DNA of 64,000 nt from Halomonas eurihalina (GTDB lineage: Bacteria; Pseudomonadota; Gammaproteobacteria; Pseudomonadales; Halomonadaceae), in assembly GCF_008274785.1 (NCBI RefSeq), contig NZ_VTPU01000004.1, forward strand, positions 124,001 to 188,000, given 5' to 3'. Position 1 is the first letter of the stretch, and each line of letters starts with the position of its first letter. Made by a program: the position numbers and the translations under genes. Shown here one piece after another: positions 5,509 to 19,572 of the stretch. A model generated the notes under the pieces. The model was not told where the DNA came from. It searched no databases and worked only from the letters and a program-made list of their open reading frames with translations.

Positions 5509-5518
5509 TCGACTTACC

Positions 5519-5543
5519 AAGCCGCCCTCGAGGCGGCTTTTTT
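5519..5543 (+). terminator. Rho-independent terminator after the J-like gene
   Basis: An AAGCCGCC / GGCGGCTT stem closes a short loop and runs straight into T6, ten bases after the stop codon. The T-run ends one base before an ATG and three bases before the Shine-Dalgarno sequence of the next gene, so readthrough could feed the downstream tail genes. Confidence 0.85.
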
Positions 5544-5555
5544 ATGGGAGGCCCC

Positions 5556-5753
5556 ATGACGGATGCCGATGCCATCACGCTGCTGCAAGACCTCTCTGCC
5601 GAGGCGCAGGCCGAGCAGGACGCGCTCGCCGGAGCACGCAGCGACTTCGACGACGCCAAGCAGGCGCTCAACAACTCAATGACGGCGGTATCCGGGCGCC
5701 TGGCGTCAATGGACCGCCACGTCCGCTACGCCATCGACTTTTTCGGAGTGTAA
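5556..5753 (+). CDS. Small phage tail-region protein, coiled-coil
   Basis: A protein of about 65 residues starting MTDADAITLLQDL. The start at 5556 is preferred over the in-frame ATG at 5544 because GGGAGG lies just upstream of it, whereas 5544 sits inside the terminator T-run. The sequence is rich in Ala, Glu, Asp and Gln, with a predicted helical heptad pattern and no cysteine or membrane segment. It lies three bases before the next tail gene and is probably co-translated with it. A helical accessory or chaperone of the tail fibre is an inference from position only; no family was recognised. Confidence 0.7.
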   Translation: MTDADAITLLQDLSAEAQAEQDALAGARSDFDDAKQALNNSMTAVSGRLASMDRHVRYAIDFFGV

Positions 5754-5756
5754 TCC

Positions 5757-7202
5757 ATGGCAGAACTTGACCCCGCTTTGCAGGATGAGATCAGCAATCT
5801 GCAAACACGACACACGGCTCTTGTCGACGCGGTGCGCAACTACTCCGGCGGCAGCATCGCGCAGGCGACCAACGACCTGCTGGCCGCCCAGGCGCAGACC
5901 GAGAGCACGATTGATGAGCGCGAGACGGCGCTGCTCGGGTTGATCCAGCAGCAGACCGACAAGCCGGTGCCATCGCTGATGCTCGATTTCCTGGAGCGGA
6001 TCTACATGCGGGGTGCTCGTCGCCTCGAGCACGGCATCGACCCGTATAGCATTCTTTCCGTCAACCGTGGGTCTACTAAGTGGGTGTGGGGATCACAGGG
6101 AAAGCTCGAGGAGATCCCAGCCGACACCATAGCCTATGAATACAGCCCCACCACTGGAGAGCCATTAGGTCACCTCAACGAGCCGGTGTCTACTAATGAA
6201 ATACCTGAGTGCAACAACTGGGGTGTCAACACTAATGAGGTTGACCGACCTGGTGGCGCAGATGCCTTTCCCGGAGGTAAGAGTGGCACGACCGCAGATA
6301 GAATCGTACCCACTTCAGTGTCTGATAACCACTTCGTACGCCAGCCTAACAACCCTGACAACACTGATGCTGACATCTCATATTACTTTCACTTCAAGCC
6401 ACAGGGTTACGAACAGGTCCAGATCAGGGTTAATGGATTCGGCGGATCAGTTGGGGCTACATTCCACGCCGGGTCTGAGACGGTCACTTGGATGGCCCCT
6501 GACACGACTTATGTCAGGATAGTGCCTCTTCCTGATGGGTGGTATCGGTGCGAAGTTGCGGGAACGGTGGTTACCGGAGGAAATGGCTCCTTCGTCCACA
6601 TCTTCATTATGGACGGTAACGATAATAAGTCTTTCGCCGGCGACGGCACTAGCGGCATCGATGTTTATTGGGGGCAGCTTGAGATTCGGAACGCTCCTAC
6701 GTCGCCGATCTGGACAAATGGTTCTACAGAAACACGGCAGTCCGACAATATCCAAGTTGTCGCTGATGGTTGGCAGAACCGTCGCCAAGCCTCTCTTCAC
6801 GTTGAAATGTCTGTCAAAGAGGGCGGTGAGAAAGAAGATAATGTCGCCACGCTTGGTGCCGGCCGAGGCAATGAGCGCATGGTGTTGTCGAAAGAAGGCC
6901 AGATGTATGTGACGACCCCCGAGGGAAGTAATTTCAATGGAAATTCTTACGACCTGAACTTTCATCCAGAATTTACCAGATACGCCGTAAGTTACGAAGA
7001 AGCCGGGTCAATGCATATGACTATCGACAATGGAGCCAACTCTCGCTCTCCCGGCGCGATGAACGGTAAACATTTGGACGTTACGCGCATGACTCTAGGA
7101 ACGCAGCACACGAGCGCCACCGATGTGATCAATGGCTATATCCGACGGGTGCATTACTACCCGTTCATGATGGACCTGGCTGATCTGGAGGCCCTGCAAT
7201 GA
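5757..7202 (+). CDS. Phage tail fibre / spike-like structural protein with lectin-like domains
   Basis: A 481-residue protein with a helical N-terminus (about 1-85) that likely trimerises or attaches, then an attachment-type motif region (RGSTKWVWGSQGKLEE, then EPLGHLNEP) typical of phage head-spike/tail-fibre proteins, then two beta-rich segments resembling jelly-roll or LamG-like folds (about 150-300 and 320-470). The start has a good Shine-Dalgarno (CGGAG). The stop overlaps the next start by 4 bases (ATGA). The central part is less GC-rich than the flanking tail genes, as expected of an exchangeable receptor-binding protein. The structural role is well supported by context; the ligand is unknown. 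Confidence 0.8.
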   Translation: MAELDPALQDEISNLQTRHTALVDAVRNYSGGSIAQATNDLLAAQAQTESTIDERETALLGLIQQQTDKPVPSLMLDFLERIYMRGARRLEHGIDPYSILSVNRGSTKWVWGSQGKLEEIPADTIAYEYSPTTGEPLGHLNEPVSTNEIPECNNWGVNTNEVDRPGGADAFPGGKSGTTADRIVPTSVSDNHFVRQPNNPDNTDADISYYFHFKPQGYEQVQIRVNGFGGSVGATFHAGSETVTWMAPDTTYVRIVPLPDGWYRCEVAGTVVTGGNGSFVHIFIMDGNDNKSFAGDGTSGIDVYWGQLEIRNAPTSPIWTNGSTETRQSDNIQVVADGWQNRRQASLHVEMSVKEGGEKEDNVATLGAGRGNERMVLSKEGQMYVTTPEGSNFNGNSYDLNFHPEFTRYAVSYEEAGSMHMTIDNGANSRSPGAMNGKHLDVTRMTLGTQHTSATDVINGYIRRVHYYPFMMDLADLEALQ

Positions 7203-7621
7203 TCGACGCGATTCTCTATATCCCGGACTTCTCAGCTCTCCTCCAGGAACTCAAAATGTATCACCCCGAGTACCTCAAGCAGCGCACTGACACCGGTGAG
7301 GCCGTAGAACCACCGGAGATCGTCAATCTGGCCCACACGCCGCTGATCCGACAGGGTGACGCGGCTATGACCTATGTGCGGCTGCGCGAGCACCAGGTCG
7401 AAGCGTGGCGGGCTCTGTCCAGCGTCGAGATGCTGGCCAGGGCTGAGTACGTGGGCGAAGGCACAGCCGATGTGGTCTATGCCCAGGTGCTCGACGATCC
7501 TGAGCGCCTGGCCACGTACGACAGCGTCTACGACCGGACGCCGAGGGAGGTGCCGGACGGTGAGGGCGGCACGATTACGTGCACGCCCCCGGATCGGTTC
7601 GGGATCATTGCGGGAGCGTGA
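7199..7621 (+). CDS. Small phage tail-end protein of unknown function
   Basis: A 140-residue protein starting MIDAILYIPDFSALLQELK, translationally coupled to the fibre gene by a 4-base ATGA overlap. It has a mixed alpha/beta composition, no signal peptide and no transmembrane segment. It is the last gene of the plus-strand tail module and is followed by a terminator-like hairpin. Proteins of this size commonly accompany tail-fibre genes in prophages of this group. An assembly-chaperone role is possible but rests only on position. Confidence 0.75.
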   Translation: MIDAILYIPDFSALLQELKMYHPEYLKQRTDTGEAVEPPEIVNLAHTPLIRQGDAAMTYVRLREHQVEAWRALSSVEMLARAEYVGEGTADVVYAQVLDDPERLATYDSVYDRTPREVPDGEGGTITCTPPDRFGIIAGA

Positions 7622-7625
7622 TCAA

Positions 7626-7667
7626 AGAAAAAAGACGTGTGGCCGACCAGAGCGGCCGCTCTTCTTT
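7626..7667. terminator. Bidirectional terminator between convergent genes
   Basis: A GGCCG / CGGCC stem (7641-7645 with 7653-7657) is flanked on the left by an A-rich run and on the right by CTCTTCTTTCT, so it can work in both directions. It separates the plus-strand tail operon from the minus-strand gene ending at 7668. Confidence 0.6.
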
Positions 7668-8084
7668 CTAACGTGTAGGGTAGTGACCGTACATCCGTCT
7701 ATACGATTCCGCTGAAATATGGTTGTCGGCTAAAATTCTTAATTTCTGTCGACTTACAACCTCGTCTTTGTGGTAAATAGGTTCTTCATCTAGGGTATCG
7801 AGGACCAACTCCTGTATGGCCAGAAAAAAATCATCTTTATCACCTACCCACTCCTTATTATCAAAATACTTCTCTCCGGATATGAAGACGCATTCTTGGT
7901 CATCTCCATTTTTATCGTAATCTTCATATTTATAAGCGTAAACCTCGAATAGTTCATTCGGAAAAAAATCGACTAGTTCTTCAGGAGGTTTTCCGATTAG
8001 GTAAAGACAGCCGGAGTTAGGTGTTGGCCTATACGCATCTTCAATGGTGAGGTTTATTACTCCAAAATTATATTCAAAGTTCAT
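7668..8084 (-). CDS. Hypothetical acidic protein, low-GC orphan gene in prophage
   Basis: 138 residues, starting MNFEYNFGVINLTIEDAYR. The start at 8084 is chosen because AAAGGAG lies six bases upstream; the longer frame to 8120 has no ribosome-binding site. The protein is strongly acidic and aromatic-rich (many Asp, Glu, Tyr, Phe), with no membrane segment or signal. Its base composition is much more AT-rich than any neighbour, and it opposes the tail operon, as a late-acquired 'moron' gene would. I do not recognise the family. Small acidic proteins like this include immunity proteins and inhibitors, but no partner toxin is visible. Confidence 0.7.
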   Translation of the reverse strand: MNFEYNFGVINLTIEDAYRPTPNSGCLYLIGKPPEELVDFFPNELFEVYAYKYEDYDKNGDDQECVFISGEKYFDNKEWVGDKDDFFLAIQELVLDTLDEEPIYHKDEVVSRQKLRILADNHISAESYRRMYGHYPTR

Positions 8085-8256
8085 TTTAAACTCCTTTGGA
8101 TAATAGTCGATGAGTTTCATCTGTCAGCGTAGGATTTCTATATTTTGACGGCAGTATGTAATTTGTTTGTGCTTTGTAAATAGCTTTATGTTTCCTTGGG
8201 CGTGTGAATGTAAATTATGCCGTGACTCATTTTTCAGATATGGGGCTAGGGAAGAA

Positions 8257-8455
8257 ATTTAGGTTAGTGGTATGGTGTGCAGCCTGTAGCCTTGAGGTCG
8301 CGAAAGTGGTCTCGTACATACTGCACAACCTGCCAAGAGCGGACTATGCTTGCCATGTAGTAGCGCTCACAGCATGCGGCGCTGATCAACTCGTTGACAT
8401 GATCGTCACCGCAGGACTGCGCGGTGACGATCCCCAGCAGTCTCTCCGAAAGATG
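8257..8455. repeat. Diverged repeat, copy A (structured, about 200 bp)
   Basis: Positions 8257-8290 match 9204-9237 at 31 of 34 bases. A second block, 8364-8380, matches 9329-9345 at 15 of 17, and weaker similarity runs between and after. Copy A contains a perfect 12-bp stem (8401-8412 with 8421-8432, 8-base loop) that has decayed in copy B. The minus-strand frames of both copies end in similar peptides (ATGCTPYH and ATDCTPYR, each then a stop). It could be a degraded pair of short genes, a structured RNA or a recombination remnant; no family was recognised. Confidence 0.5.
8401..8432. other. Perfect 12-bp inverted repeat (hairpin) in copy A
   Basis: GATCGTCACCGC at 8401-8412 is exactly complementary to 8421-8432, with an 8-base loop. 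No T-run follows on either strand, so it is not an ordinary intrinsic terminator. It lies just downstream (minus strand) of the 113-residue gene. Confidence 0.65.
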
Positions 8456-8459
8456 TGCA

Positions 8460-8801
8460 CTAATGGCCGATGAGATCGCGCAGGGGGTCGTGGTATACAC
8501 TAACTCGATAATCTTTGTATCCGAGAATGTATCCGTCAGTTGCGGGATCCGACGTCAACCACGCCCCGATAAGCACGACTTCATGTGTGAGGTTTCTAAA
8601 TTCCCCCATCCAAAAATGGAAATCTTTTGGGTTTTCCTTGGTCGGATTGCTGGCAGCCCAGTCACCCAGCGGGTTTTCAGAGCACGACCCAGTGCGCACA
8701 ATCTTAACGGTGCGTCTTTCTTCACTCACTGTATAGACGGTAGCCTCACAATTTTCTTCATGCCCGGGAAGCACTGCGGGGCCTTCTTTGAGATCACCCA
8801 T
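8460..8801 (-). CDS. Hypothetical protein (113 aa), prophage accessory gene
   Basis: Starts MGDLKEGPAVLPGHEENCEA. A strong Shine-Dalgarno (AGGAGAGGAGGG) lies eight bases before the ATG, which decides the strand against an overlapping plus-strand frame. The protein is soluble, with no signal, and with a central segment rich in Trp and Phe (FHFWMGEF, LIGAWLTSDP) and a C-terminus DPLRDLIGH. The gene sits between two diverged repeat copies and is isolated from phage structural genes. No family was recognised; a lysogeny-expressed cargo gene is the most likely role, by position only. Confidence 0.6.
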   Translation of the reverse strand: MGDLKEGPAVLPGHEENCEATVYTVSEERRTVKIVRTGSCSENPLGDWAASNPTKENPKDFHFWMGEFRNLTHEVVLIGAWLTSDPATDGYILGYKDYRVSVYHDPLRDLIGH

Positions 8802-9203
8802 TCGGACGACCCTCCTCTCCTGTCGATTGATGGGCAGGCAGGAGATACTTTCGCCATGCCTGCCATTTTGTATTTGTAAAATACCACGGGGATCTCAAGC
8901 TTCCTTTGTGACGCTAGGAAAGTCTTGAGTCGCGAAATCGTTCAAGTGTTCGGTAAGTTTTTAAAGTTTTTGATTGTCAGTTGTAGAAAAATATTTATGT
9001 TAGCATGTTTGATCAAGGATTGTTGTCGTGGTGATAATCGCGATTGCCTGTTATAGGCAAGGATATTTAAACACCGTAGCTTTTAAGGTTCTATCTGGCA
9101 ACATATGAATGTTTTAAATTGTATCAATGGGTTTCTTTGCTTTTCCTGAGGTAGGTCAATGAAAATGATGCCATGAATTTTTCGGTATTGGTCCGGTGAG
9201 GGC
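8802..9203. other. Gene-poor AT-rich spacer
   Basis: About 400 bases between the 113-residue gene and repeat copy B. It is AT-rich, with several A/T runs (8965-9000, 9060-9120), and may hold the promoter of the minus-strand gene. Only very short reading frames are present and none has both a ribosome-binding site and coding-like composition. Confidence 0.5.
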
Positions 9204-9425
9204 ATTTAGGTTATCGGTATGGTGTGCAGTCTGTAGCTCCGGGGGCGTGATGGCGATTTCCTACATGACGGGCCGGACATGTCGCACAAGTAGCCCGCCA
9301 AGCGTGGACGATGCTGTAGCTCGGGTGACGCCCACAGTATGCGGCCCCAGGGACGAGGTCGCCGCCACGGATGATAGTCTCGTCACGGTGACCTCAGGCA
9401 GCTCCAGGCCAAGGATGGCCGCCCC
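9204..9425. repeat. Diverged repeat, copy B
   Basis: Homologous to 8257-8455 in the same orientation, starting 947 bases further on. Best blocks are 9204-9237 and 9329-9345. The stem of copy A is reduced here to a GTCAC/GTGAC core around 9382-9392. Within copy B, TGTAGCTC followed by G-rich sequence occurs twice (9232 and 9314), hinting at an internal duplication. No convincing gene is present on either strand. Confidence 0.45.
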
Positions 9426-9668
9426 TAATTAGGACCGCCTTACAACGCTTTTGCCATAAAGTGGGGTTGTGAGGCGGCTCCATGACTCACGTGTGTACTA
9501 TTGCGGCGGTGCTGAGTAGTTGAGAAGAGAGGAGCGCTCACCCGCCCGTAGGTTGACGACGGTCAGGGGGCATGAGCACGGCCATGCTCTCTGGCTGGAT
9601 CGGCGTGGCCGCGGAAGCGTGGTGGTTGGGTAAGTCTGGTTAACGCACATAGCATACCCAGATCATTA
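9426..9668. other. Intergenic region with a 12-bp inverted repeat
   Basis: CCGCCTTACAAC at 9435-9446 pairs with 9466-9477 (one G-T wobble) around a 19-base loop, with no T-run afterwards. The remaining bases to 9668 carry no supported gene. Confidence 0.5.
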
Positions 9669-9947
9669 TCAGATCGCTCTCCAAGCGACGCGCTTAATAT
9701 TGTCTTTTGGGCCGGTTCTGATGTAGCGGGCCGGCCCAGTTATCGTATCAGTGCTGTGACTGGCAGGTAACGTGTCTTGATATTTATCAACTATCAATGT
9801 TCCGCGTAGGTGGTTGCTGCGTACTTCACGAAGTAACGCCACTTCAATATCGATTGGCGAACTTGTTATTGGGTAATAGTTAGACCCTTTTCGCACCTCA
9901 TTCCACCCTTCTTTAAGTAGCTGACTGAATACTTCGTTAGCTTTCAT
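9669..9947 (-). CDS. Hypothetical small protein (92 aa)
   Basis: Starts MKANEVFSQLLKEGWNEVRK. GGAG lies six bases before the ATG. The first 60 residues have the look of a small alpha-beta-beta-beta fold, and the LLKEGW...VRKGS...LRGTLI pattern recalls the HicA toxin fold. The histidine that HicA uses for catalysis is not there (KGSNYY in place of KGSHH), and no HicB partner is next to it. I therefore leave it unassigned. It starts 18 bases after the end of an A/C-rich frame without a start codon (9966-10112), which may be the remnant of a former operon partner. Confidence 0.55.
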   Translation of the reverse strand: MKANEVFSQLLKEGWNEVRKGSNYYPITSSPIDIEVALLREVRSNHLRGTLIVDKYQDTLPASHSTDTITGPARYIRTGPKDNIKRVAWRAI

Positions 9948-9965
9948 GTGCGCTCCAGTTATGCG

Positions 9966-10112
9966 TTATGCGAAGGCGGTTCGGAGGTTTTGTTTTTGTG
10001 GTTCGTCGTTTTGTTGTAGCACTTCTGGTTTTTTCGGGATGTAGTGGGTTTGCTTCTTTAAGTCGTTCTGTTGTTGTCTTCCGCGTTGTGGTTGTGGTGG
10101 TTTCCTCGACTG
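9966..10112 (-). pseudogene. Possible 3' remnant of a gene, start lost
   Basis: This 48-codon frame on the minus strand is bounded upstream by a stop at 10113-10115 and has no plausible start until near its end. It encodes a very hydrophilic Gln/Lys/Pro/Asn-rich peptide ending PQKQNLRTAFA. The plus strand here is almost free of A, giving a marked strand asymmetry. It ends just before the ribosome-binding site of the 92-residue gene. It could also be untranslated A/C-rich RNA such as a Rho-loading region. Confidence 0.3.
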
Positions 10113-10137
10113 CTAAATAGTTTTTATTTAATAATAT

Positions 10138-10162
10138 CCGCCCCTGCTATGGGCAAGGGCGG
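10138..10162 (-). terminator. Hairpin downstream of the repeat-protein gene
   Basis: A ten-base stem with one mismatch (10138-10147 with 10153-10162) lies about 57 bases after the minus-strand gene ending at 10219. On the minus strand it is followed by ATATTATT, a weak T-rich tail, so it is a plausible but imperfect terminator. Confidence 0.45.
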
Positions 10163-10218
10163 TAAGCATTTTTCGAGTTGATTCCGTTGTTTTCCTTTTG
10201 GCAGCATTGACTCCTCTT

Positions 10219-10584
10219 TTATAAGGGAGCTACGGCGTTGTAGTCGGATTGTACACCACCATCCTCGACAATGGGGCCATCATCGAGGATGCCACCAGTA
10301 CCTACCCTTTCGGCGTTGTAATTAGACTGTACGCCACCATCGTTGACAATGGGCTCGTCATCGAGGATACCGCCAGTGTTTTTCCTTTCGGGGTTGTAGC
10401 CGGATTGCACGCCGCCGTCTTTGACGAGGGCTTCGCCGTCGTTGCTCCCCATCTTGGACATGTCGTGGGATTGGCCAGCATGCCCGTCGTCTGACATTCC
10501 GCCTTCATGGTGGTCTGCCATGACCATGCTGGAGAGTAGGGCCATTGCGCCCATCAGTGCTGCTGCTTTAATGACATGCATCAT
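10219..10584 (-). CDS. Secreted repeat protein with three DGGVQSxYN units
   Basis: 121 residues. A signal peptide (MMHVIKAAALMGAMALLSSM, cleavage near VMA-DHH) is followed by a His/Asp/Met-rich segment (about 24-48) that could bind metal, then three repeats of about 26 residues built on DGGVQSxYNxER and TGGILDDxPIV. The repeats are also visible as 78-base units in the DNA. GAGG lies six bases before the start. It is the last gene of a minus-strand run, sigma factor, anti-sigma factor, DUF7282-like protein, then this one, and is probably in the same regulon. It is periplasmic or secreted. No family was recognised and the function is unknown. Confidence 0.75.
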   Translation of the reverse strand: MMHVIKAAALMGAMALLSSMVMADHHEGGMSDDGHAGQSHDMSKMGSNDGEALVKDGGVQSGYNPERKNTGGILDDEPIVNDGGVQSNYNAERVGTGGILDDGPIVEDGGVQSDYNAVAPL

Positions 10585-10666
10585 GGTGAACCTCGCATAT
10601 ATTAGTTGCTCTATCCATGTCGGGGGTTGTCCGCAACGGAGATACTCAACCTATAGTCGGATGGGA

Positions 10667-11089
10667 TTACTGTGCGGTGATGGTGGTCATCACGAGGTTT
10701 CCGTCCATCTTGATCGGGCCGTCTTCCGAAGCGCCGAGCGTATACTCGAACACGCCGGTCTCCATGCCGCCTTCTTCGCTGTGAACCATCAACATCAGCT
10801 GATCGCCGGAACTGACGTCCTCGGTCAGCAATGCGGTGACGTCCATGTTCTCGCCCTTCTTGAGCGGGGCATGGCCGACCACGGGGCCTGGTTTCATGCT
10901 GTCGTCAGTTCGGTGTACTACCAACCAGCCATTGCTGTTCGCCATGACCTTCTCGGCGGACACCGAGCCATCTGCGGTAGACTGGTCATCGGCCCAGACT
11001 TGCGGATGCATGTCTGCTTGAGCGAGGGAAGCACCGGCGAGCAGAGCAGTGGATACGAATGCGCTTGCCATGAACTTGGTCATCATCAT
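10667..11089 (-). CDS. Periplasmic DUF7282-like protein
   Basis: 140 residues with a clear signal peptide (FMASAFVSTALLAGASLAQA) and a beta-rich domain (WADDQSTADGSVSAEKV ... GWLVVHRTDD ... PGPVVGHAPLKKGEN ... VFEYTLG). This pattern resembles the DUF7282 beta-sandwich of secreted proteins. Three ATG codons in a row follow AAGGAGAG; the first is taken. It lies downstream of the sigma/anti-sigma pair, separated by 108 bases that contain an ECF-type promoter candidate. It is likely a target of that sigma factor, acting in the envelope. The exact function is unknown. Confidence 0.7.
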   Translation of the reverse strand: MMMTKFMASAFVSTALLAGASLAQADMHPQVWADDQSTADGSVSAEKVMANSNGWLVVHRTDDSMKPGPVVGHAPLKKGENMDVTALLTEDVSSGDQLMLMVHSEEGGMETGVFEYTLGASEDGPIKMDGNLVMTTITAQ

Positions 11090-11151
11090 TCTCTCCTTGT
11101 ATTCCGAAGCACGCCCTACCGATCAAAGGGTTTATGGAGGGCGTGTTCGTA

Positions 11152-11180
11152 GTTACGAGTGGAGAGCGCGCAAGGTTTCA
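11152..11180 (-). promoter_or_regulatory. Candidate ECF-sigma promoter
   Basis: On the minus strand TGAAACC (11180-11174) and CGTAAC (11157-11152) are separated by 16 bases, the architecture of many ECF -35/-10 pairs. It lies about 63 bases upstream of the DUF7282-like gene and just after the anti-sigma gene. Assignment to the neighbouring sigma factor is inference. Confidence 0.4.
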
Positions 11181-11197
11181 AGTCAGCATTAAAAAAG

Positions 11198-11944
11198 TTA
11201 TAGGTGTTGCGACCTCCCCCTTTGGTCGGTGGGATAGAGGTAGCCGTGGATTGCAGGGCCCGTCGGTTGGCCGGTAGGAGAGCCGCCCGGAGGTTCAATG
11301 CTGATGCCGAAGGTGGCCTGTTTAAGCAGGTCGGGATCGTAGTCGCGTAAGGCATCGGCATCCAGGCTGAGGTCGTCGTTCAGCACGCCCACAGAGCGAG
11401 GGTCAGGTCCGAGCTCGGCTGACTTGATCCACAGTTGATAGGTGCGATCCGGCAGTGGTTCCGCCGTCACCGGCTGTACGTTGAGCCGACGGTTGTCGAG
11501 GTCAACGGCGAGCATGAAGGCTGGCTGCTGGTCGTTCTGTGAAAATACGGCCACGAAAGGGGGCTGGGGCGGTGTCGAGTCGAACGGTACGACCAGCATG
11601 ATGGCTAATGCCAGTGCTGCAGCGGAAGCGAACGCAGTACTCCAGCGCCAGAATCTAAGGCGACGATGCAGCCCGAGCAACTGCGTCGTGCTGCTTTCAC
11701 TGGCGTCTTTTTCGGTCTCGAGTACCGCGATGCGGCGCTCGATCCGCTCTAGAAGATCCGGCCCCGGGGCTACATCTTGGATTTCGTTGCAAAGCGGGGC
11801 AAGACGAGCTTCCCAGGCTAGAATTTGTGCGTCCAGGTTAGAATCATGCTTCCGACGTTGGGCTGCCTCAGCACGCTCGTCGACCTCGAGGGTGCCCAGC
11901 ACATATTCGGCGGCCAGCATATCGATGTCGTCGTGTCCAGTCAT
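11198..11944 (-). CDS. Anti-sigma factor, RskA family
   Basis: 248 residues from the ATG at 11944, which overlaps the sigma gene stop as ATGA; a GTG at 11956 is possible. The N-terminal cytoplasmic anti-sigma domain (HDDIDMLAAEYVLGTLEVDER) is typical of RskA. One transmembrane helix follows (about 102-122, AFASAAALALAIMLVV), then a periplasmic RskA domain with the QLWIKSAELGPDPRSVG segment. It should hold the adjacent sigma factor at the inner membrane until a signal triggers its release. Stop-start overlap with the sigma gene supports a functional pair. Confidence 0.9.
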   Translation of the reverse strand: MTGHDDIDMLAAEYVLGTLEVDERAEAAQRRKHDSNLDAQILAWEARLAPLCNEIQDVAPGPDLLERIERRIAVLETEKDASESSTTQLLGLHRRLRFWRWSTAFASAAALALAIMLVVPFDSTPPQPPFVAVFSQNDQQPAFMLAVDLDNRRLNVQPVTAEPLPDRTYQLWIKSAELGPDPRSVGVLNDDLSLDADALRDYDPDLLKQATFGISIEPPGGSPTGQPTGPAIHGYLYPTDQRGRSQHL

Positions 11945-12543
11945 GACGCCAGGCACCCCTTGAGTTGCTTTAAGGCTCGGTGGAGCCAGGTCTTGACGGT
12001 ATTCACCGGCTGTTCGAAATACGCAGCTAAATCAGCGCGCGACCAGCCATCCAGGTACGCCAAGCGCACCATGTTCTGGTGATTGGCTTCGAGTTCCTCC
12101 AAGCAGGCGTGCAGTTGCCGGGCATCTTGTTCGTGCTCAATGTGTTCGTGGGCGCCGGTCTCGTCAGCGGAAATCTGTGACAATACGTCCTCAGACTCAT
12201 GAGGAGCCCTAGACTGGCGGCGCAATTCGTCGATGGCTGAATGGCGAGCGATGGCTACCATCCAGGTAATGGGGGAAGCCCGACTGGCTTTGAATTGTGC
12301 CGCCTTCTGCCAGATCGTGACGTAGACATCCTGGATGACATCGTCCGTTCGACTCCGCTCTTTCAAGATACGCAGCACCGTGCCATAGAGTTTCGCCGAG
12401 GTGGCCTCATACAGCTGGGCGAAGGCGGGACGATCGCTTTGGGCAACGAGCTGGAGCAGGTTGCGGAGGTGATCGTTGGGCGATGGCGTCGCGGGTGAGG
12501 TGTCGCCGCAATGCGTTGAAGAGGGCTGTGGGTTATCGGACAT
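11941..12543 (-). CDS. ECF RNA polymerase sigma factor (SigK/RpoE-like)
   Basis: 200 residues from the ATG at 12543, preceded by AGGGA; a TTG ten codons upstream is less likely. Region 2 is clear (LYGTVLRILKERSRTDDVIQ, then ITWMVAIARHSAIDELRR), as is region 4 with its helix-turn-helix (WSRADLAAYFEQPVNTVKTW). The 158-base gap upstream must hold its promoter; I could not find a convincing match there to the 11152-11180 motif. It pairs with the RskA-type anti-sigma gene downstream. Its location in a prophage accessory region, between tail genes and the attachment site, is unusual for an ECF system. Confidence 0.92.
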   Translation of the reverse strand: MSDNPQPSSTHCGDTSPATPSPNDHLRNLLQLVAQSDRPAFAQLYEATSAKLYGTVLRILKERSRTDDVIQDVYVTIWQKAAQFKASRASPITWMVAIARHSAIDELRRQSRAPHESEDVLSQISADETGAHEHIEHEQDARQLHACLEELEANHQNMVRLAYLDGWSRADLAAYFEQPVNTVKTWLHRALKQLKGCLAS

Positions 12544-12732
12544 ACCATCTTCCCTGTTGATGTCATCGAGCAAGCGCCATGCAAGGACAGACTAGCGTGT
12601 CGCCGCCGTGCAGGCCAATTCGGGGTCATGTGAGAGCATGGCGTGGAGGCTTTGAGCGCTGCAGGCCGATCCCCCCTTGCGCTCGATCCGCTTTCGCCAC
12701 TGCGTGATCTGGTACTGCGTGGCCACGTCACG

Positions 12733-12963
12733 TCACGTCTCAGTCGTCACCCAGCTGACCAGCCAGCCCTCGTCTGCGCGTGTCACATCTACGTTCTCGT
12801 TCTCGCTGATCTCATCGATCAGTCGATCCCAGTCGTCGAGGTTGTCGCCCTCGGCTGGCTGGAGCTGGACCTGGCGTTTCTCCCGGCGGTTTGCCGCGGC
12901 GATCTCGGTTTGAATGCGCTGGCCGAGCAGCTCGTATGAGGTAGGGCGATGCTTCTTGGCCAT
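12733..12963 (-). CDS. DUF1654 protein under SOS (LexA) control
   Basis: 76 residues (starts MAKKHRPTSYELLGQRIQTE) with the DUF1654 pattern: TSYELLGQRIQ, then DDWDRLIDEI, then a polar C-terminus. GGGAG precedes the ATG. A perfect LexA operator (CTGT-N8-ACAG) lies 24-39 bases upstream, so expression should rise on DNA damage. DUF1654 proteins are typical of pseudomonads and relatives, and at least one is, as far as I recall, in the SOS regulon. Their function is unknown. The gene is about 150 bases from the inferred attachment site, so it travels with the element. Confidence 0.8.
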   Translation of the reverse strand: MAKKHRPTSYELLGQRIQTEIAAANRREKRQVQLQPAEGDNLDDWDRLIDEISENENVDVTRADEGWLVSWVTTET

Positions 12964-12986
12964 GGTAGAGACTCCCTAGTTTGAGG

Positions 12987-13002
12987 CTGTGTAAATATAC
13001 AG
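12987..13002 (-). promoter_or_regulatory. LexA box (SOS operator)
   Basis: CTGTGTAAATATACAG matches the CTGT-N8-ACAG consensus exactly with an A/T-rich centre. It is 24 bases upstream of the DUF1654 start and overlaps the only reasonable promoter position. Confidence 0.85.
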
Positions 13003-13111
13003 CATCGGCAGGAAGAGGGGGAGGGTGGCAAATGGTGGCGAGTAGCAGGTCGCTGATGAAGAGAAAAAGCGGGGTGTACCAATACTGTACCAACCCCTCA
13101 TGAAGCCCGCG

Positions 13112-13192
13112 CTATGCGTGCTTTGTCGTCCAGTCCATCATAGGCGCGACGGAAAACCGGCGAGCCCTATCTGCGGCGTTATTTAACGACAT
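13112..13192 (-). pseudogene. dusA: 5' fragment of dusA (tRNA-dihydrouridine synthase A)
   Basis: The minus-strand frame starts at ATG 13192 and reads into RRFSVAPMMDWTTKH, the universally recognisable N-terminus of DusA, then meets a stop (TAG) after 26 codons. DusA proteins run to about 330 residues, so only the 5' tip is here. Sequence to the left of the break is unrelated. This is the expected footprint of a prophage or island that recombined into the 5' end of dusA: the native promoter and first codons stay on this side and the rest of dusA is on the far side of the element, outside the window. Confidence 0.85.
13115..13148. other. Prophage attachment site (att) within dusA
   Basis: The DNA coding for SVAPMMDWTTKH is the segment used as integration core by the dusA-specific integrases known from many proteobacterial islands and prophages. 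Homology to dusA ends at about 13,115, so the crossover lies here. The exact core cannot be fixed without the other end of the element. Confidence 0.75.
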
Positions 13193-13582
13193 ATCAGCTA
13201 ATTACCCTTCGTATCGGTATTCGTCCGATCACGTTCAATACCTCTAATACCGCCCAGAACCGACCTTGGTGTACCTTCCGCGCACGGAGTGTTTTGCGGT
13301 GCCTGGCTTCAACAGGCGGGGTGGTGCGCCATAGGCGATATGCCGGAAGCGCGGTGTTCAATGGCGGGTATTGTACGTAAGAAGGGCTATTCGGCCCAGA
13401 CCAGGACGCTTTCGCCACTAAGGGGTAGGACGTGACCTGCTGGACCGCGTTGTCGCGTTTGAACGCCGATGCCGGTTGCTGTGTCGGTGACATGGGCCAT
13501 GGGCTGGCGACCGGCTAGGGGCGTGGTCCGGGAATGTCACGCTCACTAGGTGTCGGTTTCTATACATTCATGTGGCTTGGCG
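13193..13582. other. Chromosomal leader region of the former dusA
   Basis: 390 bases without a supported gene. On the minus strand TACAAT (13378-13373) could be the -10 of the original dusA promoter. Reading frames here lack ribosome-binding sites and coding-like composition. Confidence 0.5.
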
Positions 13583-14236
13583 TCAGGGGCTTCTGCTTAG
13601 ATGTGTGCGGAAACGCTCGGCTGGTTCATGTGCCAAGGACGTCGGGCTCTCCCCGTCGTGACACTCCAGATACCTGCCGATCAAGGCATACCCAAGGCTA
13701 TAGCCAGCCCACGGAGGCTGGTCGCCTTGACCAAAGAACCATGCTCCATGGCAATAGTTGGAGGTGTTCCAATATCGCTGCGCCTCTTTCTCGCAGATTG
13801 CCAGTTCTGCTGTGCTCAGTGCTCGCTCCCAAGGTTCGGGTGCAGAACCATAGAGCTGACGACTGAAGTGCCCCGCCAGTCCTTCGGATACTAGTGCCTC
13901 TCCGAGGGTTTCCCCGTATCCTGGGCCTTGCCAACGCATGACATGATGAAGTTCATGAGCCACCATCCGCTCAAACGGCTCACCCATGTTCCGGGCGAAA
14001 TTCTCATTACCTGGATCGAGGGTGAGTTGCATCATGGTTCCTGTCGGGGCATAACCGGCGAAGCCCATAATATCGATGACTCGTCCAGGCCAGACCTGTA
14101 CGACGATATCCAGGTTGATGGCCGTCGAAACCCGTTCCGCACGGTGACGTGCGGCTGATATTCCCTTGTCAATGCGGTCGAGCCAATCGTCCAGTTGGCC
14201 GCAAGCGTTGGCATAGTGCACGATCCATTGTGTCAT
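13583..14236 (-). CDS. DUF2268-type putative Zn-dependent protease
   Basis: 217 residues starting MTQWIVHYANACGQLDDWLD. The start at 14236 follows AAGGAG with six bases of spacing; the frame stays open further upstream but without a start site. The HExxH metalloprotease signature is at residues 94-98 (AHELHHVMRW), followed by GEALVSEGLAGHF, where the Glu is the likely third zinc ligand. This is the layout of the DUF2268 family. No signal peptide, so it is cytoplasmic. It is a single gene diverging from the small secreted protein at 14448; substrate unknown. Confidence 0.8.
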   Translation of the reverse strand: MTQWIVHYANACGQLDDWLDRIDKGISAARHRAERVSTAINLDIVVQVWPGRVIDIMGFAGYAPTGTMMQLTLDPGNENFARNMGEPFERMVAHELHHVMRWQGPGYGETLGEALVSEGLAGHFSRQLYGSAPEPWERALSTAELAICEKEAQRYWNTSNYCHGAWFFGQGDQPPWAGYSLGYALIGRYLECHDGESPTSLAHEPAERFRTHLSRSP

Positions 14237-14447
14237 TTTGCACTCCTTCACGCGGAGTAGTGAGAGGGTGATAGCGACGCAGGCGTGAGGAGGGGGATCG
14301 GCTGTGCTTTCCTTTCCGGGGCGCGAGATGTGGCTTGATCGTGAGCTGTCGCCGGATAGTGGCATGGAACATTCTTGTGCTGCGATGGTCATTGCAGTAA
14401 CTTGGAAATGCTCACGTTTGCATCCTATTTTATCTTCTCTCCGGGTG

Positions 14448-14762
14448 ATGCGTCTGTCTATGCGTCGTTTTGTCACTGCTTGTCTAGCCTTGCTGGTCTT
14501 CGGGGCCATGCTTTCAACTGCGCCTATGGGTGTGGGAGAGGTGCCGGCTGCGGACAAGGCGTTGGTAACCTTTTCGTGGGGGGATGTCTCTCCCGCGGCG
14601 TTGCTGCCAGATACAAGTGATGGGGATATCGACGAGCTTGCAGGCTCCGCCTTTCTCTCAGCGAGGATCACCCCTGCATCGAGCGTGGTGCCGCGGCCTT
14701 CCGCAGAAGTCCTGCACCATCGCGCGGCTCAGTCCATTCGGGCTCCGCCACAGTACCTCTGA
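14448..14762 (+). CDS. Small secreted hypothetical protein
   Basis: About 104 residues from ATG 14448 (an in-frame ATG at 14460 is equally possible). A signal-like hydrophobic helix (RRFVTACLALLVFGAMLSTA) is followed by a short mature part rich in Ala, Pro and Ser with no known motif. The ribosome-binding site is weak. The gene ends about 100 bases before the CBS-domain gene and may share its transcript. No family was recognised. Confidence 0.45.
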   Translation: MRLSMRRFVTACLALLVFGAMLSTAPMGVGEVPAADKALVTFSWGDVSPAALLPDTSDGDIDELAGSAFLSARITPASSVVPRPSAEVLHHRAAQSIRAPPQYL

Positions 14763-14868
14763 ATTCTTCTCTCCAACATCCTGGCTCTTCTCTGTATTAA
14801 GTTATGAGCCGCTTTTGAGAATGTCCCGCGCGCCTTGCCGACGTGGGTTCTATTCAGAGGTTTGCGAA

Positions 14869-15429
14869 ATGAAATTCTTGCCCTTGTCACGACTCGATAC
14901 CGCCGATCACCTGGTGACTCCCCAGGAGTTCTTCGACATTGAAAGAAGTTCTCCGGCTCTCAATCTGATGATGGACTTCCGGCAGTATCACCCTCATGCC
15001 ATCAGTGCTTCGATGCCGGCACTCTGGGCTGCCAGCCTGATGGAGACTGAACAGGTGGATTGCAAGCTGGTGGTCGATCGCCAACGGGAATTCATCGGCC
15101 TGTTGACCCAGGAGCGCCTCTCGGAGCAGAGCCTGATTGCTGCCCAGGCGAAGTTCGGCATTGACCGCAAGAGCCTGACCGTTACCGACTTGATGCTGCC
15201 TCGTTCTGCCATGCCGGCACTGGACTACGACGACCTGGTGAGAGCTACCGTGGCGGATCTGGTGGCGACGCTGCGTGAGGCGGGCGAGCCCTATTGCCTG
15301 GTGCGGGATAACACGCAGCGGCAGATCCGAGGGTTGATCTCCGTGAGGGAGCTGTCCGCTCGCCTGCATCAGCAGGTGTCACTCAAGCCCCAGGCCTCTG
15401 TGCTCAACGTGCTGAATGCGCATGGTTGA
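14869..15429 (+). CDS. CBS-domain protein
   Basis: 186 residues starting MKFLPLSRLDTADHLVTPQE. AGAGG precedes the ATG at a good distance. The protein consists of a short N-terminal segment (about 1-35) and a pair of CBS-like motifs (about 45-105 and 115-175), with LMLPRSAMPALDYDDLVRAT between them and the second ending RQIRGLISVRELS. CBS pairs bind adenosyl nucleotides and usually regulate a partner. Here there is no attached catalytic domain, so it is a stand-alone sensor of unknown target. It is followed by a terminator-like hairpin. Confidence 0.75.
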   Translation: MKFLPLSRLDTADHLVTPQEFFDIERSSPALNLMMDFRQYHPHAISASMPALWAASLMETEQVDCKLVVDRQREFIGLLTQERLSEQSLIAAQAKFGIDRKSLTVTDLMLPRSAMPALDYDDLVRATVADLVATLREAGEPYCLVRDNTQRQIRGLISVRELSARLHQQVSLKPQASVLNVLNAHG

Positions 15430-15453
15430 TAGAAATGCTCTTCCGAGCCATAT

Positions 15454-15477
15454 GAGCGGGCTTTCCCGAGCCCGCTC
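15454..15477 (+). terminator. Hairpin after the CBS-domain gene
   Basis: GAGCGGGCT pairs perfectly with AGCCCGCTC around a six-base loop, 25 bases after the stop codon. The T-run is poor (CTGGCATCTCTT). Confidence 0.55.
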
Positions 15478-15602
15478 TGGCATCTCTTGCCGTTACCCGA
15501 TGCGAGATAGGGCGAGTAAACTGAATAACGCGCTTCAATGTATCGGAAGAGACGAGGTGGAGTGATAGTCTGACCGCTCATCCTCGGGTCGAGGGAGCGT
15601 TC

Positions 15603-16166
15603 ATGAATGGATGGCATCGAGTCATGGCGAGCATCATGCTGTCGCTGTTGGCGGGGTGTGGCAATGGCGAAGAGCAGGGGAATGACTCTGCCGAACGGCT
15701 TGGTGGGGTGGCCCAGCCAGAAGAGGAGCGAGACACCGAGCCCGCGTCCGAGCTGGAGCCCTTCGATCAGGATGTTGCTCTTGGGGTGTCGGTACGGTTG
15801 GATGAAACGAGTCGATTGCGGGTCGAGGGTACGACCAATCTGCCGCCGGATACCCGATTGCGTGTGATGGCCCAGCGAAATGCCAGTGGGGTGAGTTGGC
15901 GAGAGAGCGTCGTGGTCGAGGAGGGCGGTTTCGCCGCAGGCCCATTCGGGCCAGGAAGTGGCCTACCGGAAGGTGCTTATCGCATTCGTGTGACAATGCC
16001 GCCGATCAGTGTTCAGCCCGTTTCCGTGCAGTCTCGTCTGGGGCGGCAGGGGGAGCACCTTGGAGGGCCTTTGGTTGTGGGTACGAAGCATGGCCAGGGG
16101 CGGGTCATCGAAGCCCAGTGGTCGTTGCGCATCGTGCCGGGCGTTGGTGTCCAGATGTCGCCATGA
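15603..16166 (+). CDS. Predicted outer-membrane or periplasmic lipoprotein
   Basis: 187 residues with a lipoprotein signal peptide: MNGWHRVMASIMLSLLAGC, the lipobox LLAGC placing the lipidated Cys at residue 19. The residue after it is Gly, not Asp, so sorting to the outer membrane is allowed. An acidic linker (about 20-55) leads to a beta-rich domain (about 58-187). GAGGGAG precedes the start. It stands between the CBS gene and gltX. No family was recognised; the domain has the look of a beta-sandwich such as those of accessory envelope lipoproteins. Confidence 0.75.
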   Translation: MNGWHRVMASIMLSLLAGCGNGEEQGNDSAERLGGVAQPEEERDTEPASELEPFDQDVALGVSVRLDETSRLRVEGTTNLPPDTRLRVMAQRNASGVSWRESVVVEEGGFAAGPFGPGSGLPEGAYRIRVTMPPISVQPVSVQSRLGRQGEHLGGPLVVGTKHGQGRVIEAQWSLRIVPGVGVQMSP

Positions 16167-16207
16167 CGTCCAGTTCCGGGCCTTGTGAATGCCCCGGTGG
16201 ATGTGTG

Positions 16208-16236
16208 CTGCCGGGTGTTGGCCAGGTGCGTATAAT
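16208..16236 (+). promoter_or_regulatory. Promoter of gltX
   Basis: TATAAT at 16231-16236 is a perfect -10 box. CTGCCG at 16208-16213 lies 17 bases upstream as a weak -35. The start codon of gltX is about 57 bases downstream. Confidence 0.6.
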
Positions 16237-16292
16237 GTGGCCAATCGCCCTGATGGCAGGGGCTACTTTTCACCGACCGGACCTAGGACGAC

Positions 16293-17771
16293 ATGACCGT
16301 ACGTACTCGTATCGCGCCATCTCCCACCGGGGATCCCCATGTAGGCACGGCCTATATTGCCCTGTTCAACCTTTGTTTCGCTCGTCAGCACGGCGGCCAG
16401 TTCATTCTGCGCATCGAGGATACCGACCGCCTGCGATCCACGACGGAGTCCGAGCAGATGATCCTGGACTCTCTGCGCTGGCTGGGGCTCGAGTGGGATG
16501 AAGGGCCGGATGTGGGAGGCCCTCATGGCCCCTATCGGCAGAGTGAACGCGGCGATATCTATGCCGAGTATGCCCGGCAGTTGCTCGATGCCGGGCATGC
16601 CTTCAAGTGTTATCGCACCAGTGAAGAGTTGGATGAGCTGCGCGAGGAGCGCAAGGCAGCCGGCCAGCACCTGGCGTTGAAGCCTGATGACTTGGCCTTG
16701 CCCGAAGCAGAGGTCGCGCGTCGCGAGCGTGAGGGATGGCCCCACGTGGTACGCATGAAGGTACCGACCGATGGCACCTGCGTGGTCGAGGACATGTTGC
16801 GCGGTACCATCGAAGTGGACTGGGCGCAGGTGGATGCGCAGATTCTGCTCAAATCCGATGGCATGCCGACCTATCATCTGGCCAATGTGGTCGACGATCA
16901 TCTAATGGGGATCACGCATGTGCTGCGTGGCGAGGAGTGGATCAACTCGGCGCCCAAGCATCAGTTGCTCTATGAGTACTTCGGCTGGCCGATGCCGGCG
17001 TTGTGCCACATGCCGCTGCTGCGCAATCCGGACAAGTCCAAGCTTTCCAAGCGCAAGAATCCCACCTCGATCAACTACTATCGCCGCATGGGCTTTCTGC
17101 CCCAGGCCGTGGCCAACTATCTGGGGCGTATGGGCTGGTCAATGCCCGACGAGCGGGAGAAGTTCTCTCTCGACGAGATGATGGCGCATTTCGATATCCA
17201 GCGTGTTTCGCTGGGTGGGCCGGTCTTCGACCTGCAGAAATTGACCTGGCTCAATGGCCTCTACATTCGTGAGGATCTCGATGACGATGCGCTGCTGGAG
17301 GCACTGAAGGAGTGGGCCTTCAACGAAGCTTATGTGCGCGAGATTCTGCCTCAGGTACGCCCTCGGGTGGAGACCTTGTCTGAAGTGATGCCGCTGGCCG
17401 GACATTTCTTCTCCGGACTGCCGGCGATCGATGAAGAGAGCTTCGCTAAGGTCAAGCTAGAACGTGAGCCCTTGCTCAAGCTGTTGCAGTTTTTGGTCTG
17501 GCGTTTCGAGGTCGTTCCGGCCTGGAACAAGGAGGCGCTGCTCGGTGAGGTGAAGGCATTGTCCGCTCACTTCGAGCTTAAGATGAAGGATTTCCTGGCG
17601 CCGGTGTTTATCGCCGTTACGGGTTCGTCCTCGAGTACCTCGGTCATGGACGCCATGGCTATCCTGGGATCCGACATGACGCGTGCGCGCTTGCGCCATG
17701 CCATCGAGGTGCTGGGTGGCGTCTCCAAGAAGCAGGCCAAGCGCTTCGAAAAGGAATTCCGCGAACTCTAA
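16293..17771 (+). CDS. gltX: Glutamyl-tRNA synthetase
   Basis: 492 residues, normal for bacterial GluRS. This class I aminoacyl-tRNA synthetase charges tRNA-Glu with glutamate in the cytoplasm. The HIGH-type motif is near the N-terminus ([13 protein letters not shown]) and the KLSKR motif is at residues 250-254. The C-terminal anticodon-binding helical domain follows (about 320-492). It is monocistronic with its own promoter. A tRNA-Glu gene, its own substrate, lies 300 bases downstream. The identity is certain; whether this copy is the canonical or a second GltX cannot be told from one window. Confidence 0.97.
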
Positions 17772-17921
17772 TGTCATAGGAAAACGCTGAAGTTCCGTCG
17801 CGAGCGACGGTAGACTGGTCGCCGCCGCAGCGCAGCGCCCGGAGTGTACCTGCTACATGAGGAGCGCGAGTACCGCCGGCGGCCAGGATATCGAGCGCAG
17901 CAGGAAATTCTCGTTTTCCCG

Positions 17922-17950
17922 TTGACGAAGATGGGGCGTGTGGGTAATAT
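17922..17950 (+). promoter_or_regulatory. Strong sigma70 promoter of the tRNA operon
   Basis: TTGACG (17922-17927) and TAATAT (17945-17950) are separated by exactly 17 bases, 22 bases before the first tRNA. Confidence 0.85.
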
Positions 17951-17972
17951 ACGCACCGTCTTCACGAGATGC

Positions 17973-18048
17973 GGGGCCTTAGCTCAGCTGGGAGAGCGCA
18001 ACACTGGCAGTGTTGAGGTCAGCGGTTCGATCCCGCTAGGCTCCACCA
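17973..18048 (+). tRNA. tRNA-Ala (anticodon GGC)
   Basis: 76 bases with a complete cloverleaf. The acceptor stem is GGGGCCT/AGGCTCC (one G-T pair), the D arm contains AGCTCAGCTGGGAGAGC, the anticodon stem-loop is CAACA-CTGGCAG-TGTTG with GGC at positions 34-36, the T arm contains GGTTCGATCC, and CCA is encoded. Confidence 0.97.
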
Positions 18049-18071
18049 GTATCTCACTTCGAAGTCGATGC

Positions 18072-18147
18072 GTCCCATTCGTCTAGTGGTCTAGGACACC
18101 GCCCTTTCACGGCGGTAACAGGGGTTCGAACCCCCTATGGGACGCCA
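18072..18147 (+). tRNA. tRNA-Glu (anticodon TTC)
   Basis: 76 bases, closely similar to the Escherichia coli tRNA-Glu: GTCCCAT acceptor strand, anticodon loop CCTTTCAC with TTC, T arm GGGGTTCGAACCCC and encoded CCA. It lies 23 bases after the tRNA-Ala and is co-transcribed with it. Confidence 0.97.
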
Positions 18148-18571
18148 CTCTTTCTTTTGCTTCTCTATCCAGAAATCCCCTTCTCTGCTTGGTGACGCTG
18201 GGCCTTGTTGTGTCCATTCGTGTCGATACTCGGCATGCGTATGTGTCTCACTCAATGCTTCTAAAGCCTGATTTCAGGCTTGACTTGTCCACGTCTCCCG
18301 TTCTCGCCGCTTGGCAGTCAGTATGACTCGCCGCTAGCCCGCATGGTGCTGGGCTTCTCTTGAAAAATGTTTAAAATCAATTGCTTATCATCGGGTCAAA
18401 AATTGATCAATTTAAGAGCGGGCCGCTGTTCATGGCGATTCAGGGACGTTTTGGAAAGGTTTTGAACAGGGTTATCCACAGAATGTGTGGAAAAGGCTTC
18501 AGGGGTGCTGGAGGGCGCCGAGCAGGAGGATAGCGGGGTGTTGTTCCTCCTGCTTAGAGCGGTATCAGTGT
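18148..18571. other. Gene-free region with hairpin, AT-rich palindrome and DnaA boxes
   Basis: 424 bases. AAGCCTG/CAGGCTT (18264-18270 with 18275-18281) is a likely terminator stem for the tRNA operon. AAATTGATCAATTT (18400-18413) is a perfect palindrome inside an AT-rich stretch. Two DnaA-box-like sites follow at 18472-18494. No reading frame is supported. Confidence 0.6.
18472..18494. promoter_or_regulatory. Inverted pair of DnaA boxes
   Basis: TTATCCACA at 18472-18480 is a perfect DnaA box. TGTGGAAAA at 18486-18494 is the opposite orientation with one mismatch to TGTGGATAA. An AT-rich stretch (18360-18416) lies to the left. The neighbouring genes are not those of a gammaproteobacterial chromosomal origin. 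Confidence 0.6.
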
Positions 18572-19456
18572 TCAGTCAAAGGCGCGTAGTCGGCGCAGCA
18601 GGGCGGAGGTATCCCAACGTCCACCGCCCATAGCCTGAAGGTCAGCGTAGAACTGATCCACGAGGGCGGTGACGGGAAGACGGGCCTGGAGGTGGCGTGC
18701 TTGTTCCAGGCAGATCGCCAGGTCCTTACGCATCCAGTCGATGGCGAAACCGTGGTCATATTCGTCGTCGATCATGGTGCGATGGCGATTCTCCATTTGC
18801 CAGGAGCCTGCCGCGCCTTGCGAGATCACCTCGACGACCCTGGATGGGTCAAGCCCGGCGCGTTCGGCGAAGTGCAGCCCTTCCGAGAGCCCCTGGACCA
18901 GGCCGGCAATGCAGATCTGGTTGACCATCTTGGTCAGTTGGCCGCTGCCGGCCGGCCCCATCAGGTTCACGGCACGCGCATACTTAGCGAGCAAGGGCTC
19001 GACCCGTGTGAAGTCGGCCTGGCTACCGCCGCACATGATGGTCAGGGCGCCATTCTCGGCGCCTTGCTGGCCACCGGAAACCGGAGCATCGAGAAAGCCG
19101 ATAGCGCGTTCGCGGCAGGCCGTGTCGAGGGATTCGGCCAGGCTGGCGGATGCCGTGGTGTGGTCGACCAGCAGACTGCCCGCCTGCATGCTGTGCAGGG
19201 CGCCGTCGTCGCCAAGAGTGACCTCTTTCACGTCATCGTCGTTGCCCACGCAGAGCAGTACCAGGTCGGCCTGTTTCGCGGCCTGGCGCGGTGTCGCATG
19301 GTGATGGCCGCCGTGGCGTTCGACCCAGTCTTCGGCCTTGGCGGTCGTGCGGTTGTAGACGTGGATCTCCAGGCCGGCTCTGGCCAGGTGGCCGGCCATG
19401 GGGTAGCCCATCACGCCGAGGCCGATGAAGGCGATGCGGTTGATTGTCTGGCTCAT
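18572..19456 (-). CDS. NAD(P)-dependent beta-hydroxyacid dehydrogenase (HIBADH family)
   Basis: 294 residues starting MSQTINRIAFIGLGVMGYPM; GGGAG precedes this ATG, so the longer upstream frame is not used. The N-terminal Rossmann domain carries GLGVMGYPMAGHL, the substrate-binding motif is DAPVSGGQQGA, and the catalytic Lys lies in GSGQLTKMVNQ. The family oxidises 3-hydroxyisobutyrate or reduces tartronate semialdehyde. The substrate cannot be fixed here, as no valine or glyoxylate pathway genes adjoin. It lies downstream of gltA in the same orientation but behind a terminator, so it is transcribed separately. Confidence 0.9.
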   Translation of the reverse strand: MSQTINRIAFIGLGVMGYPMAGHLARAGLEIHVYNRTTAKAEDWVERHGGHHHATPRQAAKQADLVLLCVGNDDDVKEVTLGDDGALHSMQAGSLLVDHTTASASLAESLDTACRERAIGFLDAPVSGGQQGAENGALTIMCGGSQADFTRVEPLLAKYARAVNLMGPAGSGQLTKMVNQICIAGLVQGLSEGLHFAERAGLDPSRVVEVISQGAAGSWQMENRHRTMIDDEYDHGFAIDWMRKDLAICLEQARHLQARLPVTALVDQFYADLQAMGGGRWDTSALLRRLRAFD

Positions 19457-19514
19457 GTGTTGCTCCCGAGTGCAGGGGGGGAGTGATTGGTTGTCGGCGA
19501 TACCGCCGAAGACG

Positions 19515-19543
19515 AAAAAGGCCACCGCGAGGGTGGCCTTTTC
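19515..19543. terminator. Bidirectional terminator after gltA
   Basis: GGCCACC/GGTGGCC stem with a five-base loop (19520-19538), A5 on the left and T4 on the right. On the minus strand it ends gltA transcription 30 bases after the stop. Confidence 0.85.
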
Positions 19544-19572
19544 TGTACTGGGTTCACATCGTCGGCGAACGA

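Follow-up and report, generated by a model that had tools for sequence, protein, structure and literature searches.

Integration of phages and islands into dusA is well described. Farrugia et al. (2015; PMC4482086) defined a set of dusA islands and prophages that carry dusA-associated integrases (DAI), a set of integrases grouped apart from other recombinases and closest to Rci, and their published account reports a PrtN homologue in 60 of 94 islands. The Vibrio dusA elements of Durand et al. (2021; PMC8409611), IMEVchUSA3 among them, are presented there as islands related to SGI1, and that account includes one case of two elements standing in tandem at dusA; the available text of PMC4482086 makes no use of the term 'tandem'. 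Here we describe a prophage of Halomonas eurihalina that measures 52,833 bp from core to core, the right end of which lies in the 64,000-nucleotide stretch analysed (the window; bases 124001-188000 of contig C44, which has 238,881 bases). It is a temperate tailed phage of the DAI class, a kind already described in both studies, and is ordinary in that insertion into dusA is a known phage habit. The dusA start that it displaced, by our reading, would have been donated by an earlier dusA-targeting element that has since decayed.

The right end is marked by a 26-codon dusA 5′ stub of donated (non-native) type on the minus strand of the window (13112-13192; ATG at 13192, stop at 13112-13114), the translation of which is MSLNNAADRARRFSVAPMMDWTTKHA. 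Over 24 residues it is 87.5% identical to the N-terminus of the DusA that this genome encodes (tblastn, E 2e-8), and the DNA of the stub region matches the start of the intact dusA at 88.8% over 152 bp (E 7e-52); the coding stub scores 91, compared with 25 for the best of 500 dinucleotide-preserving shuffles. The initial annotation, which was made from the DNA letters alone, had placed the right end of a prophage inside dusA at this stub, and a match so far beyond chance bears this out. It had also reported that the frame breaks directly after the DusA N-terminus, as indeed it does, since the alignment to the intact gene stops at 13125.

The left boundary lies 39.7 kb left of the window on the same contig, and the dusA gene and tyrosine integrase that had been predicted there are both present. 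The intact dusA (C44:83349-84359, minus strand) encodes 336 aa from the non-native start MSMNNAADGARRFSV, and a divergent gene for a 343-aa tyrosine integrase (C44:84499-85530, plus strand; PF00589, E 1e-20) starts 140 bp from the dusA start. Only 'the rest of dusA' had been expected at this end; the gene is instead complete, because the phage supplies a new start that keeps the reading frame. Integrase residues R211, H293, R296, H319 and Y328 are invariant in 13 aligned relatives, and by our assignment of alignment columns they would form the RHRH/Y pentad of a tyrosine recombinase. Adjoining the integrase is a 90-aa PrtN-family protein (PF11112, E 5e-12, above the cut-off), a family described as distantly related to RdfN, the directionality factor of dusA elements (PMC8409611). 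With its integrase beside the dusA 5′ end, imperfect end repeats, donated start, PrtN homologue and length of tens of kilobases the element resembles those described in PMC4482086, and an RdfN/PrtN-type excision factor is a feature that it shares with IMEVchUSA3 and other Vibrio dusA elements. Unlike the Vibrio islands described in PMC8409611, however, it has phage structural genes.

A direct repeat of 20-30 bases had been expected at the two ends. A repeat is present, although its exact part is shorter, 14 bases (GTCCAGTCCATCAT), and sits within a longer imperfect match between both ends; the elements described in PMC4482086 have two semiconserved 21-bp repeats, a comparison made at the level of description. 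The crossover could be narrowed further in two other genomes, G044 and G019, of a genus sample of 61 (our own and 60 more). In each of these the integrase contig has the donated start fused to sequence of the element's right end and thus represents attP, and separate contigs end in attL and attR, each overlapping the attP contig by exactly 95 bases. An excised circle or a tandem copy was therefore present in the sequenced material. Single-base differences among attL, attR and attP of G044 bound the crossover to ATGATGGA, and G019 agrees. The corresponding att core at our locus, which covers codons M-M-D, lies at 13134-13141 (minus strand), with its left copy at C44:84301-84308. When both flanks are joined at the core they give a 336-aa dusA frame with no stops, and excision should restore this frame with the older donated start. 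The present prophage can presumably still excise; excision of dusA elements has been published (PMC4482086; PMC11131426). The attP contigs are G044:C17 (39,781 bases; L123) and G019:C77 (L122), and the ends of C17 have no mutual overlap.

The stub had been taken for the host's original 5′ end, and this did not hold, as its start is donated and is adjoined by the fossil of an integrase gene. The likeness between the two prophage ends (76% over 300 bp, 89% over 152 bp) runs for about 300 bp, through the leader and into the first integrase codons. The leader of the stub (13193-13300, minus strand) is homologous to the region that separates dusA from the integrase at the left end, with a score of 126 against 30 for the best of 500 shuffles. 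Beyond it, at 13361-13422 (plus strand), is a frame-shifted and truncated fossil of a DAI start, with a DNA score of 53 (best of 500 shuffles, 24) and a protein score of 53 (best shuffle, 37). Because stub, leader and integrase piece each exceed their shuffles, the segment 13193-13422 has the look of a left end that belonged to a different, older dusA element, of whose integrase a broken piece is left. It is followed by a gene for a DUF2268 predicted Zn-protease (13583-14671, minus strand; PF10026, E 1e-26). DUF2268 was found in four of the 61 genomes, always within 8 kb of dusA or gltX, and for this reason the gene is probably cargo left by the older element. A CBS-type open reading frame (ORF; 14584-15429, plus strand), with a weak CBS match below Pfam's cut-off, comes next, and the chromosomal flank (15603-17771, plus strand) consists of a 187-aa ORF (15603-16166) and gltX (16293-17771; PF00749), which are the upstream neighbours of native dusA; of 29 native-start genomes, 25 have a homologue of the 187-aa ORF within the 1.5-3 kb examined upstream of dusA.

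The DusA start typical of the genus reads M..LDRTFSV and is absent at both prophage ends. The two nearest sampled relatives, G014 and G020, hold other elements in the same slot, so that the close relative without an element that the initial annotation had proposed as a check was not found; their resident integrase is about 32% identical to that of the present prophage. On the gltX side both nevertheless have a donated-type stub, fossil-like DNA, DUF2268 fragments, the CBS-type ORF, the 187-aa ORF and gltX, and the DNA resembling the fossil is 80% identical over 75 bp in G014 and 82% over 60 bp in G020. Since this scar is shared beneath an integrase so different from ours, it would predate the present residents. 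The 300-bp likeness, the missing native N-terminus and the shared scar together indicate that the older element had replaced the native start. According to PMC4482086 the far end of such an element, away from the integrase, is the original dusA 5′ end, whereas at our locus the start found there is donated and accompanied by an integrase fossil; since this stub still rebuilds the dusA frame, we regard the difference as reuse of the site and not as the mark of another family.

We favour the explanation, to which we assign a probability of roughly 0.85, that a phage integrated at the M-M-D core over a start donated by an earlier, decayed dusA element. A DAI-bearing temperate tailed phage would have recombined its attP with attB inside codons M-M-D of dusA. 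This would have carried the start of the resident dusA to the prophage's far end, where it is now the stub, and placed the phage's own start and leader before dusA, which would stay whole because they replace those that were displaced. The displaced start would itself have come from an earlier dusA-targeting element, since decayed to the integrase fossil and its probable cargo, and this decay presumably preceded the arrival of the present phage. The donated leader may now drive dusA. We note that the leader donated by one Vibrio element is reported to express dusA in Escherichia coli at below the pre-insertion level (PMC8409611), and that a Shewanella strain without its dusA prophage is reported to have lower dusA transcription (PMC10845958).

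A single integration into native dusA, with the stub as the host's ancestral 5′ end, would be the usual outcome in the genus, where six of ten dusA elements have a native far-end stub. At this locus we reject it as very improbable, because the stub reads MSLNNAADRARRFSV and not M..LDRTFSV, the leader is phage-like and an integrase fragment follows; both this fossil and the native starts of relatives contradict it. The similarity of the two ends, at the levels given above, could also have arisen if, once the prophage was integrated, recombination or duplication had copied its left end to the right flank. The ends are, however, far from identical, and the scar is also found in G014 and G020, whose residents have another integrase and another dusA start, so that this too is rejected, with if anything a little less hesitation. 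A better case, though still an unlikely one, can be made for tandem insertion followed by loss, in which the phage landed beside an older element that was still resident and was deleted later. This would give an identical final structure, and tandem dusA elements are known in Vibrio parahaemolyticus (PMC8409611). Three species with one decayed scar and two kinds of resident are better fitted by decay before integration, and the older partner at our locus is a decayed remnant, unlike what PMC8409611 describes for the tandem Vibrio pair.

The genus sample extends this picture. dusA was found at E≤1e-100 in 60 of the 61 genomes and a DAI-class integrase (E<1e-110; next match, 8e-55) in ten, eight of them with the integrase beside dusA on the same contig and two (G019 and G044) with it on separate contigs. 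The far end of these ten elements is a native stub in six (G005, G013, G019, G025, G039 and G044) and a donated one in four (G000, G014, G020 and G050). The 60 DusA starts comprise 31 native, 14 class I, 10 class II and 5 class III. When the 120-420 nt upstream of dusA in 58 genomes were compared with the integrase start, using 60 codon-block shuffles for each, a signal above every shuffle was obtained for 23 of 27 genomes with non-native starts (8 with a full adjacent integrase, 15 with a fragment) and for none of 31 with native starts. On a tree of the dusA body (quick search, 60 rows, 885 columns) native versus donated starts require 11 or more changes, of which starred branches force 7, and class I genomes cluster no more strongly than expected from label shuffling (12 changes, compared with a mean of 12.8). 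When the six class I genomes that have a complete integrase beside dusA are compared in pairs, the 150-bp leader-and-start segment shows closer similarity than the coding body in 14 of 15 cases; for native pairs this holds in 2 of 465. The sign of transfer is confined to the former. We read these sequence patterns as horizontal replacement of the dusA start, which can apparently stay and drift once the element has gone.

Two further kinds of remnant were seen in the sample. In G050 (L124, 7818-8202) the far end of a class I element has a donated class I stub and a 63-residue integrase fragment (84% identical), and by its sequence this is another second-generation case. Second dusA stubs 1.2-1.9 kb upstream of an intact dusA occur in G007 (L033, 295), G027 (L116, 1065) and G042 (L032, 87), and are probable miniature remnants of former elements.

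Two TGGTAC repeats in the window (13076-13081 and 13087-13092, minus strand), 60 and 49 nt from the core, are proposed as arm-type sites of the far side. Around the core TGGTAC/GTACCA occurs near -136 in all ten elements, with a further copy at -147, -170 or -186/-187, and on the far side at +49 and/or +60 in eight, the exceptions being G020 and G039. There are 2-5 copies per element, against shuffled means of 0.14-0.26, and none in 13 native upstream regions. We propose that the repeats at these conserved distances serve as arm-type sites.

Several points weigh against the favoured explanation or weaken the genus survey. The older element should have left a second, native stub, and a search of window positions 1-20000 for FSVAPMMDW (six frames, up to two substitutions) did not find one; the explanation must therefore suppose that it was lost. 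In G014 and G020 the 75 and 60 bp of DNA similarity link the gltX-side scars to the fossil, but at the protein level these scars do not rise above shuffles as integrase. No strain lacking the prophage was seen, and a scan for sigma-70-like consensus promoters found nothing at either dusA start. Four genomes with non-native starts (G007, G010, G032 and G034) gave no integrase signal upstream of dusA, and the fossils of G031 (46 against a best shuffle of 43), G036 (48 against 46) and G057 (46 against 44) are each weak on their own; they and other class II rows have IVRKK in common. The native far end of G025 scored 46, the same as its own best shuffle, and scores near this value therefore prove little alone. 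The upstream test left out G019 and G044 (contig edge) and counted G006 as a fragment, yet the contig ends inside the G006 integrase. Start classes were judged by eye and recorded once the fossil results were known, only G018, G024, G028 and G037 having been classed before the fossil test. The dusA tree has a long G001 branch and four rows of odd base make-up, and when every class I pair is taken into account the leader shows the closer similarity in only 33 of 66. Of 14 native control regions given for the TGGTAC count 13 were reported, L030 being dropped when its core failed the script's test.

Scanning contigs that represent one genome per species gave 29 relatives of the integrase. In 25 of these there is a divergent dusA match beside the integrase, in one (L069) only a 15-residue fragment; none was found beside the integrase in L070, L088, L091 and L092, the match in L091 starting 39 bases from the end of the DNA. 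The integrase of Marinobacter phage PS6 is 42% identical over 98% of the query, and just upstream of it a dusA-like start (LDRTFSVAPMMD) runs into other sequence. Burkholderia phage DC1 has a dusA-like start similar to that of PS6, and in the third phage record examined, vB_Pae-SS2019XI, none was found. The large terminase subunit of Pseudomonas phage JBD44 is 81.3% identical over 99%, a comparison of the terminase alone, and JBD44 is not among the matches listed (15 of 191 records) for the integrase search. Halomonas prophage Phm2, the excision of which has been detected in its host, is described as a P2-family phage with a 36-kb genome (PMC11131426), and so differs from the present prophage, which is 52.8 kb long and has a terminase resembling that of JBD44.

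Taken across the genus, we consider it likely that the dusA leader and first codons are a horizontally replaced module, that phages overwrite donated starts, and that lost elements leave their start and an integrase fossil fixed, in places across a species group, making dusA a readable record of lysogeny. The mechanism of integration is already known; the record of serial replacement is new, and searches of the open-access literature found neither decayed serial replacement nor fixed integrase fossils upstream of dusA described, most subscription papers and bioRxiv preprints lying outside the search. Because a donated start and integrase fossil outlast their element, they allow past infections to be counted. 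Here it is the front of the gene for a tRNA-modifying enzyme, leader and N-terminus alike, that is seen to change hands repeatedly, and if donated leaders differ in strength, for which there is one Vibrio case in PMC8409611, loss of a phage could bring a lasting change to a housekeeping gene.

Proteins scanned between the prophage ends include RdgC, a Rad52-like protein, an O-like replication protein, terminase, portal, tape measure and tail proteins. A 465-aa ORF in the left part (L005:7643-9040, plus strand), with a weak HEPN_Swt1 match below the cut-off, is a possible defence or accessory gene. The right part of the prophage (1-13133, plus strand; PHROGs, PF07867) has tail genes, with PHROGs matches at 67-5508 and 5757-7202, and then a minus-strand block ending at a DUF1654 gene (12733-12963, minus strand; PF07867). 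Near this end the minus strand also encodes an ECF-type sigma factor (11941-12573), an RskA-like anti-sigma protein (11198-11956) and a DUF7282 protein (10667-11089), which are possibly a carried regulatory cassette (10667-12573).
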